Assembly (NCBI RefSeq): GCF_014696065.1
Contig: NZ_JACJPL010000018.1
Coordinates: 124,001-188,000 of the forward strand
Reading direction: 5' to 3'
Source of the DNA: Leptolyngbya sp. FACHB-261
Lineage (GTDB): Bacteria; Cyanobacteriota; Cyanobacteriia; FACHB-261
DNA length: 64,000 bases
The position numbers were made by a program, and so were the translations under genes. How positions within the stretch are numbered: the stretch's first letter is position 1; every line of letters begins with the position of its first letter. The notes under the pieces were generated by a model, which saw only the letters and a program-made list of their open reading frames with translations, was not told the DNA's origin and made no database searches. Of this stretch, positions 31,859 to 40,429 are shown piece by piece.

Positions 31859-31954
31859 CGCTGATTCAGTCAGACTTTACCGGCTGACGGGTACCGAGCG
31901 CGATCAGGTTCCCATGTCACTCACCCAACCGGCCCTGATTTTCTGCTTATAAGT

Positions 31955-31985
31955 GTTTGGGACCCCCTTATGGGAGGTCCCAAAC
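31955..31985 (-). terminator. Hairpin behind tRNA-Arg
   Basis: A 10-bp stem (31955-31964 with 31976-31985) with extra G/C pairing towards the loop, 22 bases after the tRNA-Arg 3' end on the minus strand. There is no clear T-run, so it may be a processing or pausing structure rather than a classic terminator. Confidence 0.5.
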
Positions 31986-32006
31986 GACGCACTTTTGTCT
32001 TTTAGA

Positions 32007-32080
32007 CGGGCTAGGAGGGATTCGAACCCCCGACACCGTGGTCCGTAGCCACGTGCTCTAGTCCACTGAGCTACAAGCCC
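32007..32080 (-). tRNA. tRNA-Arg (ACG)
   Basis: A 74-base cloverleaf on the minus strand: acceptor GGGCTTG with CTAGCCC, D-arm GCTC/GAGC, anticodon stem CGTGG/CCACG with loop CTACGGA (anticodon ACG, read as ICG after deamination by TadA), T-arm GGGGG TTCGAAT CCCTC, discriminator G. The sixth acceptor pair is a T-T mismatch and the T-stem has one G-T pair. CCA is not encoded. Confidence 0.95.
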
Positions 32081-32121
32081 TTACCAAGGCGAATATAACC
32101 ATAACATACATCCAGCAAATT

Positions 32122-32664
32122 ATGAACTCTTTTCCCCTCACGCATTTAGATAGCAGCGGTCAGGCCCAGATGGTCGATGTCTCAGCCAAGGCTCAGACCC
32201 TGCGTCAGGCGGTCGCCGCAGCCCAGGTGCGCATGCAGCAGAGCACCTTTGAGGCGATCGAGAACGGCAATGCTCCCAAAGGCGACGTTTTAGGGACAGC
32301 TAAGCTTGCAGGCATCATGGCAGCCAAGCAAACCGCTAACCTGATTCCCCTCTGTCATCCGCTGCCCCTGACCAAGGTGCGGGTTGAGCTGAGCCCAGAC
32401 CCAGAGCTACCGGGTTACCAGATTCGAGCGGAGGTAAAGACCCGCGCTGAGACTGGGGTAGAGATGGAGGCCCTAACCGCCGCCTCAGTAGCGGCTCTCA
32501 CGCTATACGACATGGCGAAAGCTCTAGAGAAATCGATCCAAATCGAGCACATTCGCTTGGTGAGCAAAAGCGGCGGCAAGTCAGGTGATTATTTGGCATC
32601 CGAGCCAGTAGAGGACCCGGCCCCGATGCAGAACCAGGAGCCACCTGCTCCATCAGCTCAATAG
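32122..32664 (+). CDS. moaC: MoaC, cyclic pyranopterin monophosphate synthase
   Basis: A 180-residue MoaC, acting with MoaA in the first step of molybdenum cofactor synthesis. Conserved parts are [40 protein letters not shown] and the active-site region [20 protein letters not shown] with KSGGKSGD near the end. A Pro-rich acidic tail of about 20 residues is extra. No other moa gene is adjacent. Confidence 0.95.
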
Positions 32665-32774
32665 CAAGGTCAATCGCTTAGCCGAGACCTGAAAACTGTG
32701 TGATCTAAGCACTTCAGCCTTGAGAACAGGGCTAGGATCGAGGTTGGTTACGGTTCTTCACACCCTGCCCCTTT

Positions 32775-33551
32775 ATGAACCTTTTTACCCACGTCCTGCA
32801 TATCCTGGGCTCAGGTGCGGTTGCGTTTGTGTCTGCTCGCAGTCTGCGCGATCCGCTAACCCGACCCAATACCTTAGCAGGGCTGCAACTGGCAGAGTCT
32901 GGCTCTGTCCCCTTTCTAGAGGCGCTGAGTGCGCGAGCTGCTGCCGAGGGCGATACTTGGTTGGCCGAGAAGCTGGCAAAGCATGCTTCTGATGAGAACC
33001 GTCACGGTCAAATCTTTGCCCATGCCCTCAAGCAGCTCAACAAGCAGGTTATTGATTTCAAGAGCTTGGCCCAAGCTCAGGAAGGCAAGCCAAAGGAAGC
33101 CAAGCCGGATGATCGCAGGCGCAGTCCCTTCTTTGAGGCTTACTTTGAGGGTTACTCCCAAGAGACCTTCAAGCCGCAAAACATCGACTGGACAGTATTC
33201 ATGGCTAGCACCTACATTCTGGAATTAGATGCTAGCCGTGACTTTGTGCGCATGGCCCACGCTCTGCCCGATGATCCGGTCAGCGTCAATATCCGCAAGG
33301 GCATGCTCAGCGTGGCTCAAGATGAGACTGGCCATGCCGCCTACCTGCGCGAAGCTCTAGAGCGACGCCTGTCTCCCGCTGCGGTTACAGCCGTGATCGA
33401 CGAGTGGCGCACGCGCAAAGTCAACGCCATGCTAGCCATGGTCAGCAACCTGCTCCAGAAGGGTGGCAAGATGCCCGAACTCGCTCGCGATGGCGTTCCC
33501 ATTGAGATGACCGCTGAGCCTGACGCGGCTTCAACCCCAGTCGCAGCCTAA
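32775..33551 (+). CDS. Ferritin-like di-iron protein
   Basis: A 258-residue four-helix-bundle protein with a full set of di-iron ligands: Glu41, Glu74-x-x-His77 (DENRHGQIF), Glu150 and Glu184-x-x-His187 (DETGHAAYL). This is the EX2H pattern of ferritin-like oxidases and rubrerythrin-type proteins (COG1633-like). The insertion with Lys/Glu/Pro (about 100-118) is unusual and probably disordered. Possible roles are hydroxylation, peroxide handling or iron redox; the substrate is unknown. The next gene starts 15 bases later on the same strand. Confidence 0.82.
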   Translation: MNLFTHVLHILGSGAVAFVSARSLRDPLTRPNTLAGLQLAESGSVPFLEALSARAAAEGDTWLAEKLAKHASDENRHGQIFAHALKQLNKQVIDFKSLAQAQEGKPKEAKPDDRRRSPFFEAYFEGYSQETFKPQNIDWTVFMASTYILELDASRDFVRMAHALPDDPVSVNIRKGMLSVAQDETGHAAYLREALERRLSPAAVTAVIDEWRTRKVNAMLAMVSNLLQKGGKMPELARDGVPIEMTAEPDAASTPVAA

Positions 33552-33566
33552 ACAAGGTCCGATTCT

Positions 33567-34931
33567 GTGCCTGCAATTGTTGTTGCCTATCTCTACAGTG
33601 AGCCTGGCTTGGAGCCAGCCCCCGAGCTGTTTTCTGAGAACCGGCCCTCCGAAAAATGGCCCCTTAAGAACTGGCCCCTTGAGGACTGGTCCATTGACCG
33701 GGTCTACCAGGATTTGGGAGGGCGACAACAATTGCAGGCACTTCTCACTGACGCCCAAGCGGGACAGTTTTCTCACTTGCTGCTGCCCCGATTGGCCGAT
33801 TTGGGTGACACAGTCGAAGAGGTCTGCCAGCGGTTGCAACAGCTGGAGGCACAAGGCATTTGTCTAATCGCAACTCACCAGAGCTACCGTTCGGATGCAG
33901 GCACAAGCAACGTGGCGGCACAACTCGACTTGCTGCGAGAAATTGAAGCCAACCAGCAACAGCGCCGTTTGCGTTTAGGACATGCGCGGAAGCGGCTGCA
34001 AGCCCTGCCTCCGCCTGGAAAGGCCCCCTACGGCTACCGTCGCGGCAAAGAGCACTACATCATTGACCGCAGTGCCGCGGTAGTGGTGAAAGACTTTTTC
34101 GAGCAGTTTTTGCTCTACGGCTCTCTGCGTGGTGCTGTCCGCTATCTGGCCAAGAAGCATGGCAAACGTATTTCTGTAGCGACAGGACGGCGTTGGTTGA
34201 CCAGTGCGGTTTATCGCGGCGACTTATCTCATCCAGCGCCAACCCCAGCAGGCAAGCCGCAGGTTCTACGGGATACCCACCCGGCCTTGCTATCGCGTCA
34301 AGACGCAGCTCAGGTTGACCGTTTGTTGCGGCGCAATGCCTCGTTACCTCGACGTACAGTGAGCGCGCCCCGGTCGTTAGCGGGGCTGGTGAGTTGTGCT
34401 GAATGTGCGCAACCATTAACCATTTCGCGGGTGACCACCCATGGCAAAAGCCGCGAGTATCTGTATTTGCGCAATCCCAAGTGTTCAAGAGCGCCTAAGT
34501 GTCCAGCGATAGCCTATCAGCAGGTGTTGGAACAAGTCATTGAGGCGATCTGCACCGATTTGCCGCGCACGGTTTCTGGACTGGATTTCTCACGACTGGG
34601 ACAGGCGAGAGCCGGCATGATGGCGGTGATCGCGGATAAGGAGCGCATTCTGGAGCAGATTCCTAGCCTTGAGGCAACTGGGGTGCTGGATTCTGAAACC
34701 GCAACTTTACGCACCTACAACCTGCGCACAGAACTGGCAGACCTGCAAACTCAAATGGCACAACTGCCACCGATTAGTTTGAGTGCGATTGCGCAAACAG
34801 CTTCCTTGCCCCAGTTCTGGCAAGATTTATCAGAGACAGAACGACGGTTCTTCTTTCGGGAATTTATTCGTCAAATTGGCGTCCGGCAGTCTCCTGATGG
34901 TGTGACTGTAGAGCTGAAATTTGTCTTCTGA
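33567..34931 (+). CDS. Large serine-recombinase-like protein with lost catalytic residues
   Basis: A 454-residue protein with the layout of a large serine recombinase: N-terminal resolvase-like domain (1-125), Recombinase domain (about 145-225: PPPGKAPYGYRRG, AVRYLAKKHGKRISVATGRRWL), a zinc ribbon (LVSCAECAQPL with CSRAPKCP), then a coiled coil and C-terminal region. The catalytic YxRxS reads YLYSE (Arg to Tyr10, Ser to Glu12), and the LDRLGRS helix reads LADLGDT, so two active-site arginines are Asp78 and Asp81. It should bind DNA but not cleave it. A short internal repeat (KWPLKNWPLEDW) inserts near residue 30. Start GTG 33567. Confidence 0.85.
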   Translation: MPAIVVAYLYSEPGLEPAPELFSENRPSEKWPLKNWPLEDWSIDRVYQDLGGRQQLQALLTDAQAGQFSHLLLPRLADLGDTVEEVCQRLQQLEAQGICLIATHQSYRSDAGTSNVAAQLDLLREIEANQQQRRLRLGHARKRLQALPPPGKAPYGYRRGKEHYIIDRSAAVVVKDFFEQFLLYGSLRGAVRYLAKKHGKRISVATGRRWLTSAVYRGDLSHPAPTPAGKPQVLRDTHPALLSRQDAAQVDRLLRRNASLPRRTVSAPRSLAGLVSCAECAQPLTISRVTTHGKSREYLYLRNPKCSRAPKCPAIAYQQVLEQVIEAICTDLPRTVSGLDFSRLGQARAGMMAVIADKERILEQIPSLEATGVLDSETATLRTYNLRTELADLQTQMAQLPPISLSAIAQTASLPQFWQDLSETERRFFFREFIRQIGVRQSPDGVTVELKFVF

Positions 34932-34952
34932 CCGCCTTCGCCCAAGCACACC

Positions 34953-35750
34953 ATGTTCCAATACCTATCTAAGCTCTTGCCCCCGTTTTTTTATCCGTTG
35001 GGGCTGAGCTGTTTGTTGCTGCTGATTGGGGTGTTTACTTTTTGGCGGCGCGACTGGGGACGACGGCTGAGTTTTGCCTGTGTGCTGACGGCCCTCCTGC
35101 TGCTGTTGCTGAGCAGTAACAAAGCGCTGTCGGACAGTGCCGTGCGTTCGCTGGAGTGGCGCTATCGAGCGGATCAGACCACGCTGCCTAAAGCAGATGC
35201 GATCGTGGTTCTGGGAGGCGGCATCCAGGCCCAACTGCCACCTCGAACTTGGCCCGAGGTAGCGGAGGAAGGAGATCGAGTGATTTATGGGGCGAGGCTC
35301 TACCGGGCAGGCTTAGCGCCCTGGCTAGTCATGTCTGGCGGTCGGGTGGACTGGCTCGGCGTCGGTGGTCCGCCTGAGTCGGGCGATATGGCAGCGCTAG
35401 CTGAGGCGATGGGGGTTCCCCGCCGAGCCATTTTGGAGGAGCCAAGCTCCTTCAACACCTACGAGAACGCCCGCAATGTCAAGGCAATTCTGCAGGAGCG
35501 AGGCTTGCGGCGGGTGCTGCTGGTGACTAGCGCACTGCATATGCCCCGTTCGCTGGCTATCTTTGCCAAGCAGGGCATTGAGGCCATACCCGCGACAACC
35601 GATTATCTGGCGGTGGAGAGCCAAGCGCGTAAGAATGCTTGGGAGGCTGGGATTGACTGGCTACCCAATGCAGATGCGCTGCGCAACACCAGTCGCGCTC
35701 TGCGGGAATATGTGGGCCTTGGTGTGTACAAGCTGCGGGGCTGGCTTTAA
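34953..35750 (+). CDS. YdcF/ElyC-type DUF218 membrane protein
   Basis: A 265-residue protein with two N-terminal membrane helices (about 10-28 and 36-55) and a DUF218 domain: DAIVVLGGGIQAQ, APWLVMSGGRVD, EEPSSFNTYENARNVKAIL and LLVTSALHMPRSLAIF. The conserved acidic/basic motifs are complete. ElyC-type members influence envelope carbohydrate or lipid carrier metabolism. It follows the recombinase-like gene by 21 bases. Confidence 0.9.
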   Translation: MFQYLSKLLPPFFYPLGLSCLLLLIGVFTFWRRDWGRRLSFACVLTALLLLLLSSNKALSDSAVRSLEWRYRADQTTLPKADAIVVLGGGIQAQLPPRTWPEVAEEGDRVIYGARLYRAGLAPWLVMSGGRVDWLGVGGPPESGDMAALAEAMGVPRRAILEEPSSFNTYENARNVKAILQERGLRRVLLVTSALHMPRSLAIFAKQGIEAIPATTDYLAVESQARKNAWEAGIDWLPNADALRNTSRALREYVGLGVYKLRGWL

Positions 35751-35788
35751 TCGCTAAGCATTAAGCATTGGACATTAAGCATTGGGCC

Positions 35789-36883
35789 TTAAGCGTTAGT
35801 AGTCACCGGTTCACTGAGAGCTTTACTGGCTTTGGCCTCAGACTCACTGCTGCCATCTCTGACCCCAGAATCTTCTGGCCCAGAATCTTTTGGTGCGGAA
35901 GAGGGCTGGGGCGTCGCCTCCAGGTTGGCATCGAGAATGAGCTGCCGCAGGTGCCGGCGGAAAGCAGGGTCTAAATGCTGTTGCCGCACTGTTTCCCAAT
36001 CGGTCATGGCTTGGGACTGTCGCTGCTGAACGAGTTCTTGTAGGCCAGGCAGCTTAGTGCCACGTGGCAGTTCTTCGAGCAGCAGTTCCAAGAGCACCTG
36101 GGTATCTTGCACAACGCCCAAGTTGTCTTGAAGCTTGCGCACATCCTCAACCCAGTTGGTGAATGCTTCACCATAAAAGGGAGTGAAGAACTCTGCTTCA
36201 TAACGCACGTGCTTAAGCGTTTTGCGCAGCTCGTGTAGGGTTGGCGCAGAGCTACCCAAGGCTTCTTCCACAGGTAACAACCAACCAGGATGCAGAAGCA
36301 AGGTTGAGAGCAGAGGACTCAGCAGGTCGGGCACCAAAGGCAGCAAAGGGCTCTCAGCGAGTGCTTTCAAGCGGGGCTCAGCCAACCAGACACTATACGC
36401 TTCTTTGAGTTTCTGGTAGCGGGGCTGGCTCAGGACAAATTGCACCCCTGATAAAGTCTTGCGTCGCTGTTTAGTTAGAGCATCTAAAACCCGGTCCAAG
36501 CTCTGTTGCTCCCCAGACTCGAGATGAGGACGATACTCCGTTTTCAGCGTAGCTGTTTGTACATCTAAATCACGCAGTTCACCTAGCACTCGCGCCAGGT
36601 CGCGCACCCGATCTGCACCGGCAGCTTTCGGCAATTCCACAGCGACTGCAAACACCTGGAGCGCTGTTCGCAAACGACGACTGCTCACCCGCATCTGGTG
36701 CAGGGCTTCTGGATCTTTATCAGCTAAAACCTTCTTTTCGGGCTTGATCAAACGACGATACTGTTCGCCAATCACAACACGAGCATACTCACCCAGGGTC
36801 GGCCCTGAGCTGGCATTGGTTGACAAGTCAACCTTAGCTTTCAACTTTTCTTTACTCAAAATGGAGGTCCAACGCAGCAGCAA
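35789..36883 (-). CDS. CHAD domain protein
   Basis: A 364-residue CHAD (conserved histidine alpha-helical domain) protein. CHAD spans about 30-310: PEALHQMRVSSRRLRTALQ, LARVLGELRDLDVQTA, LHELRKTLKHVRYEAEFF and VEDVRKLQDNLGVVQDTQ, with the basic and His residues that bind phosphate polymers. Known CHAD proteins bind polyphosphate and sit on polyphosphate granules. The C-terminal 45 residues are Ser/Glu/Pro-rich. The TTG start at 36883 is uncertain (TTG 36859 also possible). It is divergent from the PhoX-RTX-GDPD gene with a Pho-box-like sequence between. Confidence 0.88.
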   Translation of the reverse strand: MLLRWTSILSKEKLKAKVDLSTNASSGPTLGEYARVVIGEQYRRLIKPEKKVLADKDPEALHQMRVSSRRLRTALQVFAVAVELPKAAGADRVRDLARVLGELRDLDVQTATLKTEYRPHLESGEQQSLDRVLDALTKQRRKTLSGVQFVLSQPRYQKLKEAYSVWLAEPRLKALAESPLLPLVPDLLSPLLSTLLLHPGWLLPVEEALGSSAPTLHELRKTLKHVRYEAEFFTPFYGEAFTNWVEDVRKLQDNLGVVQDTQVLLELLLEELPRGTKLPGLQELVQQRQSQAMTDWETVRQQHLDPAFRRHLRQLILDANLEATPQPSSAPKDSGPEDSGVRDGSSESEAKASKALSEPVTTNA

Positions 36884-36891
36884 ACTCTAAA

Positions 36892-36910
36892 TTTAACCCT
36901 ACCTTAATTT
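36892..36910 (+). promoter_or_regulatory. Pho-box-like site (two 8-bp repeats, 3-bp spacer)
   Basis: TTTAACCC (36892-36899), spacer TAC, CTTAATTT (36903-36910). The cyanobacterial Pho box for SphR/PhoB-type regulators is tandem PyTTAAPyPy(T/A) with 3-bp spacers. The second copy fits fully, and the first fits at all but the last base. It is oriented towards the PhoX-RTX-GDPD gene about 300 bases downstream and lies beside the CHAD start. A third isolated match, TTTAACTA, is at 37108-37115. Function is inferred. Confidence 0.5.
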
Positions 36911-37210
36911 CGAGACAACTATATTGCGATAGATGCCGGTTTTGTTGTCCAACTTTCAAACCGAAGCCGTGTCAGCTACCCCAGCATTTCTGGGGCTAGT
37001 CCAAGCATAGCCAGACTATCGAGGCTAGTTTGAACTAACTTTTCAATGTCTCAAAAACTTCCCATATTTAGACATCTGAGTCTCTAATTCAAGCTTTTTC
37101 CAATTAATTTAACTAAGACGTTTCTTAAAGAGATGATAGCAATCTCTTAGCATTGCTGTGGGAACCTAGCGAGGGTGCAAAAACGAGTCCTAGAAATTGG
37201 GGAAAGCTTA

Positions 37211-40200
37211 ATGGCTAATGTGATCGACGGGCAGACAAACGCTGCTGCTTACGTTGCTAATGTACCCGGCAACGGTGGTTATCAAGTGACTCCTTTGCTC
37301 ACCGTGGGCGATGAGTTTCCGCTGCTCACTGGCGAAGGTTTAGACGACTTGAGCGTGGTTGAAGGTAAAACCTTTGCTTTTACTGGAGTACCAGATGGCA
37401 TTGGCCTGTTTACCACGGAAGAGGCTTATTATGTCTTCGTCAATCATGAACTAAGTCCTTCTGCAACTTCTGATATTTCCAGTACCGTTCCTGGACAAAT
37501 TAAGGGAGCGCAAGTCTCACTGCTGAAGTTCGATAAGGATTGGAACGTTATCGGCGGCAAGAGCCTGATCGAACAGGCAGTAGACAGCACTGGCACCTAT
37601 GTTCTAGACACCACAACTGGCACCTATGTCAACGCCGCAACCGGCGCAAGCTTTAGCTTTAATCGCTTCTGTTCGGGCTATCTAGCTGAATATGGTTTCG
37701 AAGATGGCCCCATTTACTTCGCCCCGGAGGAATTTACCCCTAACGGTCGGGCTTGGGCTGTTTCTACCGATGGCACCGCTCAGGCGATTGATGGCTTAGG
37801 CCGCTATGCCAAAGAAAACATCCTCGCAGCTTCTCAATATCGAGCTGAAAACTCCGAGAAAACAGTTCTGATCAGCACCGAGGACTTCGCCGACGGTGAA
37901 GTCTACATGTTTGTTGGCGAGCAAACCGCAGAAGATCCCAATGGCTTTAAGCGGGGCGATCTGTATGTGCTGAAAGTTGAAGGTCACAGCAACGAAACCC
38001 TAAGCGAAGGCGTCAGAACTGGCGCAACCTGGACCCAGGTTGACAGCAATGTCGTCCTCAATCCAGACGGTAAGGTTTTGAGCGATTGGGTGAACACCGA
38101 GAGCCGCTCGACCAATTTCCGCCGCCCTGAAGATATTCACGAAGATCCCAATAATGCGGGGACCTTTTATTTCGTTACTACTGGGGCTGAGCAACGCCTA
38201 GATGGCTCAGCAACCGAGAATGCTAACGAAGCCGAAAACCCTTACGGCAAACTCTATCGCTTCAGCTTAAATGCTGACGATCCCACTGGAGCCATCAATG
38301 ATTTTGAACTATTGCTGTCTGGTGGTCCTGGTAAAGGCGTCAGCTACGACAACATTGTGGTTGACAGCAATGGCAATGTCTTAATTCAAGAAGACGCAGC
38401 TGCTTTTGGTGATGACGTCATGGCGGCTGAGGGCCGCGACGCGCAGATTTGGTCATTCAACCCTGAATCCGGCGAGATTGTGCCACTGTTTGAAGCCATT
38501 GAAGGCGCAGCCGGTCCAAAGTTTAACGATCCGGAGCCTGGTAATTGGGAGACCTCGGGCATTATCGAGGTGCCTACTGACAGCCAAGGTCGCAGCGCCT
38601 ATTTATTCGATGTCCAGGCCCATAGTATTCGTGATCCACAATATCTGGGCGGCAACTATGTTCAGGGTGGCCAGTTGCTGCTGGCAGTGCCGGTCGCTAA
38701 CGACCCCACGATTGGCGGCGACAACGGTCGTGATCAGCTCAGCGGCAGCCGCCGGAGCGACACGATTTGGGGCGATAAAAGCCTCTATGGTCCTGGTGGC
38801 AATGATCGCATCAACGCCAATTCCGGCAATGATCTAGTGTTTGCAGGCGGCGGCAATGACTCTGTTAAAGGCGGTCGTGGCGACGACATCATTTACGGCG
38901 GCGCTGGCGACGATTCCATCGACGGCAATAGCGGCAACGACAAGATCTACGGCAATGACGGCAACGATTACCTGAAGGGCTCCGAAGGCAATGATGAGAT
39001 CTTCGGAGAAGCAGGCAATGACAACATCGAAGGCGGCAGCGGCAACGACAAGCTATACGCGCAAGATGGCGACACCTTAACCGGCGGTGCTGGCAGTGAC
39101 CAGTTCTGGATCGTTGACAGCGAAGTTCCCACCGCAGGCAGCCGGATCACTGATTTCCAGGCGGGCAAGGACATCCTCGGCTTGGGAGCTGGGCTAGCCT
39201 ATGCCAATCTCAAAATCAATCAACTGGGCGACGATACCCTGATCAGCCTTAAAGATGGCAACAAAGCTCTGGCCATTCTTGAGGGCGTCGATGCTGGTAG
39301 CCTATCGATCACCAATTTCGTGAGCACCGCTGCTCGGCCTTTGGTCATCGGGCACCGGGGCGCTAGTGGTTTACGGCCTGAGCACACACTGGCTGCTTAT
39401 GAGCTAGCAATTGAACAAGGCGCTGATTTCATCGAGCCTGACGTGGTTTCCACCAAAGATGGCATCCTGATTGCCCGCCACGAAAACGAGATCTCGGGCA
39501 CCACCGATGTAGCTGATCGGCCTGAGTTTGCCAGCCGCCGCGCCACCAAAATTATTGACGGCAGCGAGGTGACCGGCTGGTTCACTGAAGACTTCACGCT
39601 GGCGGAGATCAAAACCCTGCGGGCCAACGAGCGGCTACCCTTCCGCGACCAGTCCTTCAATGGCCAGTTTGAGGTGCCGACCCTCCAAGAAGTGATCGAT
39701 CTGGCCAAGAGCAAGAGCGCTGAACTTGGTCGCACAGTTGGCATCTATCCAGAAACCAAGCACCCCACCTATTTCGATTCGATTGGGCTGTCTCTGGAAG
39801 AACCTTTGGTAGCAGTGCTGGATGCCAATGGCTATACCAGCGCTGATTCGCCAGTGTTCATCCAGTCGTTTGAAGTGAGCAATCTACAACAGCTCAATGA
39901 GCTCACCAAGGTGCCGCTAGTCCAGCTCTTCGATGCAGCAGATGTGCAGCCCTACGACTTTGTTGCCACTGGTGACACGCGCACCTACGGCGATTTATTG
40001 GCTCCAACTGGTCTGGCAGAAATTGCCACCTATGCCGATGGCATTGGCCCTTGGAAGCGGTTGATTATTCCTGCTGAATCCGTAGATTTCGACGGTAATG
40101 GGCAGCCGGATGACCTCAACGGTGACGGCCAAATCAGTGATGCTGATCGGTTGCTGCAAGCACCAACGACCCTGATCGAAGATGCCCATGCCGCCGGTCT

Positions 40201-40429
40201 ATTGGTGCATGCCTACACCTTCCGCAACGAGGACTTTTACCTGGCTCCGGATTACAACGGCGACCCAGCACTGGAGTATCAGCAGTTCTTTAGCCTTGGC
40301 CTGGACGGGCTGTTCAGCGACTTCCCTGGCACTGCAGCTCAAGTCGCCAATCAGCTCTATCCCTTCACCCAAGCCGATCCGCTCAATGGCGTTGGTCTAC
40401 TCGCACCGAGCCCTGAAACTAGCGTGTAG
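37211..40429 (+). CDS. PhoX/DUF839 - RTX - glycerophosphodiester phosphodiesterase fusion protein
   Basis: A 1072-residue three-part enzyme. Residues about 1-500 are a PhoX/DUF839 beta-propeller phosphatase region (FVNHELSPSA, FNRFCSGYLAEYGF, IYFAPEEFTPNGRAWAV, FRRPEDIHEDPNNAGTFYF). Residues about 503-635 are RTX calcium-binding nonapeptides (GGxGxDxxx type). About 710-1050 is a glycerophosphodiester phosphodiesterase with His715 (VIGHRGASG), Glu742-Pro-Asp744 and His757 (ARHENE); a calcium-loop-like insert (DFDGNGQPDD, DLNGDGQISDADR) is near 959-983. No N-terminal signal is present; RTX suggests type I secretion. ATG 37211 has GGGGAA upstream. A terminator follows at 40485. Confidence 0.9.
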   Translation: MANVIDGQTNAAAYVANVPGNGGYQVTPLLTVGDEFPLLTGEGLDDLSVVEGKTFAFTGVPDGIGLFTTEEAYYVFVNHELSPSATSDISSTVPGQIKGAQVSLLKFDKDWNVIGGKSLIEQAVDSTGTYVLDTTTGTYVNAATGASFSFNRFCSGYLAEYGFEDGPIYFAPEEFTPNGRAWAVSTDGTAQAIDGLGRYAKENILAASQYRAENSEKTVLISTEDFADGEVYMFVGEQTAEDPNGFKRGDLYVLKVEGHSNETLSEGVRTGATWTQVDSNVVLNPDGKVLSDWVNTESRSTNFRRPEDIHEDPNNAGTFYFVTTGAEQRLDGSATENANEAENPYGKLYRFSLNADDPTGAINDFELLLSGGPGKGVSYDNIVVDSNGNVLIQEDAAAFGDDVMAAEGRDAQIWSFNPESGEIVPLFEAIEGAAGPKFNDPEPGNWETSGIIEVPTDSQGRSAYLFDVQAHSIRDPQYLGGNYVQGGQLLLAVPVANDPTIGGDNGRDQLSGSRRSDTIWGDKSLYGPGGNDRINANSGNDLVFAGGGNDSVKGGRGDDIIYGGAGDDSIDGNSGNDKIYGNDGNDYLKGSEGNDEIFGEAGNDNIEGGSGNDKLYAQDGDTLTGGAGSDQFWIVDSEVPTAGSRITDFQAGKDILGLGAGLAYANLKINQLGDDTLISLKDGNKALAILEGVDAGSLSITNFVSTAARPLVIGHRGASGLRPEHTLAAYELAIEQGADFIEPDVVSTKDGILIARHENEISGTTDVADRPEFASRRATKIIDGSEVTGWFTEDFTLAEIKTLRANERLPFRDQSFNGQFEVPTLQEVIDLAKSKSAELGRTVGIYPETKHPTYFDSIGLSLEEPLVAVLDANGYTSADSPVFIQSFEVSNLQQLNELTKVPLVQLFDAADVQPYDFVATGDTRTYGDLLAPTGLAEIATYADGIGPWKRLIIPAESVDFDGNGQPDDLNGDGQISDADRLLQAPTTLIEDAHAAGLLVHAYTFRNEDFYLAPDYNGDPALEYQQFFSLGLDGLFSDFPGTAAQVANQLYPFTQADPLNGVGLLAPSPETSV

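Follow-up and report, generated by a model that had tools for sequence, protein, structure and literature searches.

The 64,000-nucleotide window, i.e., the whole stretch of Leptolyngbya sp. FACHB-261 DNA analyzed here, carries a gene whose product is probably a large serine recombinase that has lost catalysis and acts as a site-specific DNA-binding protein; most searched genomes of its class retain the gene on the chromosome. Domain content alone would class such proteins as products of mobile-element genes; what we found instead is a conserved chromosomal family.

The open reading frame was confirmed on the plus strand at 33567–34931 (stop codon included) and encodes 454 amino acids from a GTG start. 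An in-frame stop lies just 5′ of this GTG, namely the TAA ending the preceding ferritin-like gene, and in the alignment the GTG is at most two residues off the start used by most orthologues. Pfam recognized a Resolvase domain (35.1 bits, cut-off 23.3) and a Recombinase domain (30 bits, cut-off 21.1) in the 454-residue protein, and Zn_ribbon_recom scored slightly below its cut-off (24.4 versus 25.3 bits). The Resolvase match covers profile positions 32–141 of 145, hence the stretch aligned with the YxRxS motif went unrecognized. By descent and predicted fold the protein is a large serine recombinase, with the Resolvase N-domain, the Recombinase domain and the zinc ribbon on one chain.

All parts are encoded on the plus strand. 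The N-terminal resolvase-fold domain (residues 1–115, 33567–33911) is followed by a long helix and linker (residues 116–155, 33912–34031), which is basic and contains the family motif GHARNRLxALPPPGKAP. Next come the Recombinase domain (RD; residues 156–262, 34032–34352) and the zinc-ribbon domain (residues 263–335, 34353–34571) with C277, C280, C306 and C312. A two-helix, coiled-coil-like insertion (residues 336–402, 34572–34772) is found at the same position as in phage serine integrases, and a C-terminal tail (residues 403–454, 34773–34928) consists of helices plus a β-hairpin.

The AlphaFold model, computed with a 40-row alignment, had a mean pLDDT of 91.3. Foldseek and VIA-align matched it to the serine integrases of SPbeta, phiC31, Bxb1 and A118, and the domain order is the same as in the A118/LI integrase (4kis), SPbeta YokA (9dxd), Bxb1 (9iu2) and phiC31 (9rah) structures. 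The C-terminal half superimposed on 4kis with a Z-score of 15.7 (286 residues, 5.2 Å) and the N-domain on 3guv with a Z-score of 12.9 (102 residues, 2.5 Å). Whole-chain superpositions gave rmsd values of 15 Å or more, as expected if the domains sit at differing angles. DSSP assigned the helices of the insertion to residues 341–370 and 376–398 of the predicted model. Residues 12–42, following the nucleophile position, form no long helix and contain the least certain part of the model. Moreover, the spacing between nucleophile and D49 has a family median of 21 residues versus 27–30 in seven active relatives; together with the model, this suggests that the usual first helix is replaced by a loop.

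To describe the former active site, we aligned 78 orthologues from named genomes and 60 further orthologues with seven catalytically complete cyanobacterial recombinases (L061–L067). Columns were set by the active relatives and numbered after gamma-delta resolvase. YLYSE aligned under YxRxS and LADLGDT under LDRLGRS, just as the preliminary description had proposed. The window protein thus carries E12 in place of S10, Y10 in place of R8, A77 in place of D67, D78 in place of R68, and D81 in place of R71. The same description had held the catalytic serine and arginines to be gone; this stood for the serine and three arginines, and did not for the R45-type arginine, which is kept as R53. The serine, R8, R68 and R71 expected of an active large serine recombinase are hence absent from the protein, and R45 is present. 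Neither a Ser or other nucleophile at that position nor relocated arginines, which would have refuted the described loss, emerged from the alignment. We also weighed the Ser one residue earlier, within YLYS, as a nucleophile and dismissed it, since this column varies across the family (S, T, Y, Q, N, R, C, G, H and others).

The predicted loss of the active site is not peculiar to the window locus and is shared across a widespread cyanobacterial family. In the S10 column, the 138 orthologues have D in 99 rows, E in 13, N in 10, a gap in 10, S in two and other residues in four. The R8 column reads Y in 129/138 rows and R in one; the R68 column E or D in 130/138 and R in one; the R71 column D or E in 122/138 and R in none. 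Acidic residues hence make up 112/128, 130/136 and 122/136 of the ungapped rows at S10, R68 and R71, respectively. From these counts we conclude that loss of catalysis is a family trait and that the replacements are mostly acidic. R8, S10, R68 and R71 were all present in 7/7 active relatives, and the full catalytic set in 0/138 orthologues. Of these four residues, three members (L036, L039 and L060) retain one or two, and none of them is complete. Ser in the nucleophile column occurs in L036 and L039 (both of family f13), the latter with the motif YTRLS, and Arg in the R68 column in L060. The R45-type position is Arg in 137/138 orthologues, the exception being L055, which has no N-domain, and the R125-type position is Arg in 89/138. 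The D49 position is Asp in 136/136 ungapped rows and is kept in the window protein.

A search with the single sequence matched 61 of 96 genomes at E 1e-3 or better. The match in G013 was the active-type recombinase L062 only, so the family occurs in 60 of 96 genomes, at one place in each, sometimes in two pieces, and with strong E-values. A profile search matched 274 of 388 genomes of the class at E at most 1e-3; about 240 are strong matches once 34 with E above 1e-40 are subtracted, some of which may be fragments. Identity of the strong matches was roughly 36–58%. As about 148 of the 388 genomes were without a strong match, the gene seems dispensable in many lineages; the f14 genomes G013, G032, G046, G071 and G082 were without one. 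In a search of the phylum, strong matches were found in 98 of 292 genomes, the listed matches all falling in the same class; the listing omits 174 of the non-matching genomes. Named members, drawn from the best 80 of 446 relatives, come from Nostoc, Fischerella, Moorena, Microcoleus, Calothrix and Acaryochloris, among others. A plasmid search gave no match. Nine phage records were matched in part, never over as much as 80% and never by an orthologue, and among 22 pattern hits in IMG/VR viral contigs there was one weak partial match and no orthologue.

A 93-row tree places the 83 family rows and the 10 catalytically complete relatives at opposite ends of a branch with 100/100 support. Rows of the same taxonomic family mostly group together, which suggests mainly vertical descent; several active rows sit on long branches. 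The best NCBIfam match of the window protein was XisF, the cyanobacterial fdxN-element excision recombinase (NF041201), with 111.9 bits over residues 53–441, and the family member L041 reached 115.5 bits. The cut-off of this model is 375 bits, and catalytically complete relatives taken as controls scored above it (L171, 536.6; L173, 533.3; L176, 488.3; L063, 462.6); we therefore conclude that the window protein is not XisF. XisF-level proteins keep YxRVS and DRLGRS and are separated from the family by the 100/100 branch.

Some family members deviate from the full-length form. L033 (G087) and L055/L186 (G064) have about 340 residues and are missing the whole N-terminal resolvase domain, with RD, zinc ribbon and tail kept in an open frame; no separate N-domain piece was matched for L033 and L055 in their genomes. 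Copies that are split (L177 in G183), in pieces (L179 in G371) or reduced to a remnant (L180 in G177) were also seen, and in G177 another copy with an open frame, L181, lies about 16 kb from the remnant. In the genome of the window, the gene was the only match to PF00239 at E 0.01, and a family member was likewise the sole match in G018, G021, G030 and G034. In G142 and G149 this search did not pick up even the family member, so it can overlook divergent proteins, though it should detect an active one. Its control, Synechococcus elongatus, also gave a PF00239 protein, a candidate member of the family. G078 (2.9 Mb) has 20 further PF00239 matches in open frames of 200–280 amino acids, which suggests an expanded insertion-sequence family.

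The neighbors of the gene are of the housekeeping type, as previously described. A gene for a ferritin-like/rubrerythrin-type protein (32775–33551, plus strand) ends 15 nt before it and one for a DUF218 (YdcF/ElyC-like) protein (34953–35750, plus strand) begins 21 nt after it; a MoaC gene lies further upstream of the ferritin-like gene. No phage or transposon genes were recognized among the three neighboring proteins scanned. tRNA genes are common integration sites, and a tRNA-Arg gene is located at 32007–32080 on the opposite strand, about 1.5 kb upstream. Within 31900–36900 no long repeat pairing with this tRNA gene was found; the longest well-matching repeat of this interval is an inverted repeat inside the gene itself. 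Further downstream, at 37175–40429, a 1084-residue open reading frame has, judged by eye, glycine/aspartate-rich repeats and a glycerophosphodiester phosphodiesterase-like stretch near its C-terminus.

Could the protein still recombine DNA, with another nucleophile or moved arginines? The intact predicted fold of the N-domain, the retained R53 and the YTRLS motif of L039 would speak for it. However, almost all of the 138 rows have other residues for the nucleophile and the three arginines, L039 itself is without the DRLGRS arginines, the Ser preceding the nucleophile position is not conserved, the top repeat within 31900–36900 is internal to the gene, and the three neighboring proteins scanned include no recognized phage or transposon product; we consider residual recombination very unlikely. 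It is similarly improbable that the protein assists an active serine recombinase of the same cell or acts as its dominant-negative partner. G008, G033, G064, G065 and G083 do carry both a family member and an active enzyme, but in several genomes, including that of the window, the family member is the only PF00239 match, and a helper role is therefore hard to sustain. The few broken copies are what a decaying pseudogene of an integrated phage would leave behind, yet the listed rows of the class have open frames, dN/dS is well under 1 and the distribution is class-wide, so that the chance of mere decay is close to nil.

Across 639 pairs of named orthologues, dN/dS was 0.217 for the N-domain and 0.067 for RD (both medians), while the zinc domain came to 0.152 and the C-terminal part to 0.123; these are rough values from a Nei-Gojobori-type count with gene-wide dS and pairs that are not independent. 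The whole protein is under purifying selection, strongest in RD. Mean column conservation likewise peaks in RD (0.81 versus 0.63–0.74 in the other parts), and the mean majority fraction is lowest in the two-helix insertion (0.63), next to 0.65 in the N-domain. Columns conserved at 95% or more take similar shares of RD (29/107), zinc ribbon (19/73) and tail (13/52). C277, C280, C306 and C312 are Cys in 138, 138, 138 and 131 of the 138 rows, the other seven being gaps. Together with the Pfam matches, the zinc ribbon being near threshold, and the predicted fold, these near-invariant cysteines agree with the earlier view that Recombinase domain and zinc ribbon look intact. The N-domain has a median net charge of −9 in the family versus −6 to +6 in the seven active relatives, and linker, RD and zinc domain have +8, +9 and +5, respectively. 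These three parts are positive in most active relatives also, and the positive charge of RD and zinc domain is hence no special sign; the charge pattern fits a C-terminal half that holds the DNA and a former active site that does not.

Repurposing as a DNA-binding protein, which the preliminary description had put forward, would fit the conservation of RD, the zinc cysteines, the two members without an N-domain and the absence of a second PF00239 match from the genome, and these same observations lead us to favor binding without cutting by an old pseudo-recombinase inherited mainly vertically. We infer DNA binding, dimerization and the effect of binding as follows. Recombinase domain, zinc ribbon and coiled coil would together form a site-specific DNA-binding unit, and the N-domain would be kept as a structural or dimerization module. 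A dimer would most likely bind one or a few conserved chromosomal sites without cutting, and the bound protein may regulate transcription or local DNA structure, i.e., serve as a regulator or a DNA bridge. However, the dN/dS of 0.217 shows constraint on the N-domain as well, which hence does something that the preferred reading leaves unexplained. Phage integrases often change their target sites; set against this habit, the conservation of RD hints at one and the same target throughout the class.

We searched for such a target in the surroundings of the orthologues. The gene neighborhood varies across the class and hence suggests no target pathway. A pattern for the VOC/glyoxalase motif (Pfam Glyoxalase) placed such a gene at most 900 nt upstream, often close, in 62 of 77 named loci (loci L091–L170). 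Of the 60 rows with a located target (61 rows, with one genome occurring twice), 14 have this gene as the immediate upstream neighbor. In the genome of the window, the homologue is on another contig. Downstream of the gene, the f5 genomes have a chlL-like gene (Fer4_NifH) and two more that, by eye, are POR-like and chlN-like, and glgA and hrcA, also by eye, surround it in L048–L051. As neighbors differ between genomes, we did not conclude on any conserved operon partner, VOC/glyoxalase included. Some 9-mers were common to up to 26 of 78 upstream regions versus 3–6 at most in ten shuffles. The top ones turned out to be coding sequence of the upstream VOC gene (EKWGRN, DGN-IEL) and were rejected as a regulatory footprint, and the k-mer search upstream of the 78 orthologues yielded no binding site. 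The HIP1 octamer was discarded as target as well, since its counts in 96 genomes do not track the family: they are low in G004 (57), G078 (67), G090 (29), G034 (52), G064 (134) and G000 (375) despite a family member and high in G022 (8811), G051 (7470), G010 (6745), G045 (5796) and G074 (8376) without one.

Instead of acting at a promoter, the protein could be architectural, its dimers pairing via the coiled coil to bridge or loop DNA and thereby organizing the chromosome. In phage integrases the two-helix insertion serves protein–protein contacts, and its retention in the model would agree with such a role, as would the missing operon partner, which argues against a local regulator. On the other hand, the insertion is the least conserved part of the protein, no repeated site was found and HIP1 does not follow the family; we regard an architectural function as possible, though rather unlikely. 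Alternatively, the former active site might have become an acidic pocket for a metal or small ligand, making the protein a ligand-sensing regulator or a metal-dependent nuclease. The mostly acidic replacements at S10, R68 and R71 and the invariant D49 point in this direction. However, the D49 and R53 positions are conserved in active relatives too and are maybe structural, the acids may merely neutralize the retained arginines, and two members do without the whole N-domain. We hence consider this a doubtful proposal with a low probability. A bolder form of the preferred reading, the DNA-binding pseudo-recombinase, is unlikely on our estimate: here the protein would bind the same site class-wide, would have been captured before most of the class diversified, and would be switched by the acidic ligand or metal pocket. 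If true, it would define a new class of global or chromosome-organizing factors built on the serine-integrase fold.

How does the catalytically dead, DNA-binding recombinase proposed here relate to known systems? With phage serine integrases it shares the predicted fold of N-domain, RD, zinc ribbon and two-helix insertion. In contrast to them, the family has the catalytic Ser and three Arg replaced and is chromosomal, with no mobile-element genes recognized in the scanned neighborhood of the window. In PHROGs the protein matched the integrase family phrog_95 (143.6 bits), which reflects descent, and the PADLOC defense library gave no match for it. According to PMC10516654, MrpR (YopR) of Bacillus phage SPbeta has a tyrosine-recombinase fold without recombinase function and became the SPbeta repressor; it is alike in that a recombinase fold has lost catalysis and works as a DNA-binding regulator. 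Vaccinia F16 is listed as a predicted inactive serine recombinase in PMC11980589, and PMC9845703 names slr8029 as a Synechocystis 'recombinase family protein'. MrpR is unlike the window family in its fold, which belongs to another superfamily, and in being encoded by a phage gene, and F16 is unlike it as an animal-virus protein. F16 presumably also has neither the Recombinase nor the zinc-ribbon domain. Our literature search, by title and start of abstract on serine recombinases and essential genes of S. elongatus, with subscription journals thinly covered, returned no paper on this cyanobacterial family. Recombinases turned regulators and an inactive serine recombinase are thus already known, and the cyanobacterial family is without a paper in the literature searched. 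The family would offer a putative natural DNA-binding module of an integrase that is free of cleavage. If a fixed site is bound in many cyanobacteria, a DNA-binding factor of photosynthetic bacteria would so far have been overlooked, and the protein would clearly exemplify how a host can exapt a large serine integrase.

The inverted repeat inside the gene has two 21-nt arms that match at 20/21 positions with 133 nt between them. The left arm (33567–33587, plus strand) begins at the GTG start codon and the right arm (33721–33741, minus strand) lies in codons 52–59. The best inverted repeat in 150 codon shuffles reached 16/21, and no further place in the genome comes within two mismatches of the arms. 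Testing 20 orthologues gave at most 15/21 matching positions and thus no such repeat, for which reason we give it no weight in the interpretation. As RNA, the repeat region has a predicted fold with a z-score of −3.81 and a stem that covers the start codon; inversion of the segment would give a stop at codon 26. Candidate explanations for the repeat are an RNA switch, a segment that inverts, and mere chance.
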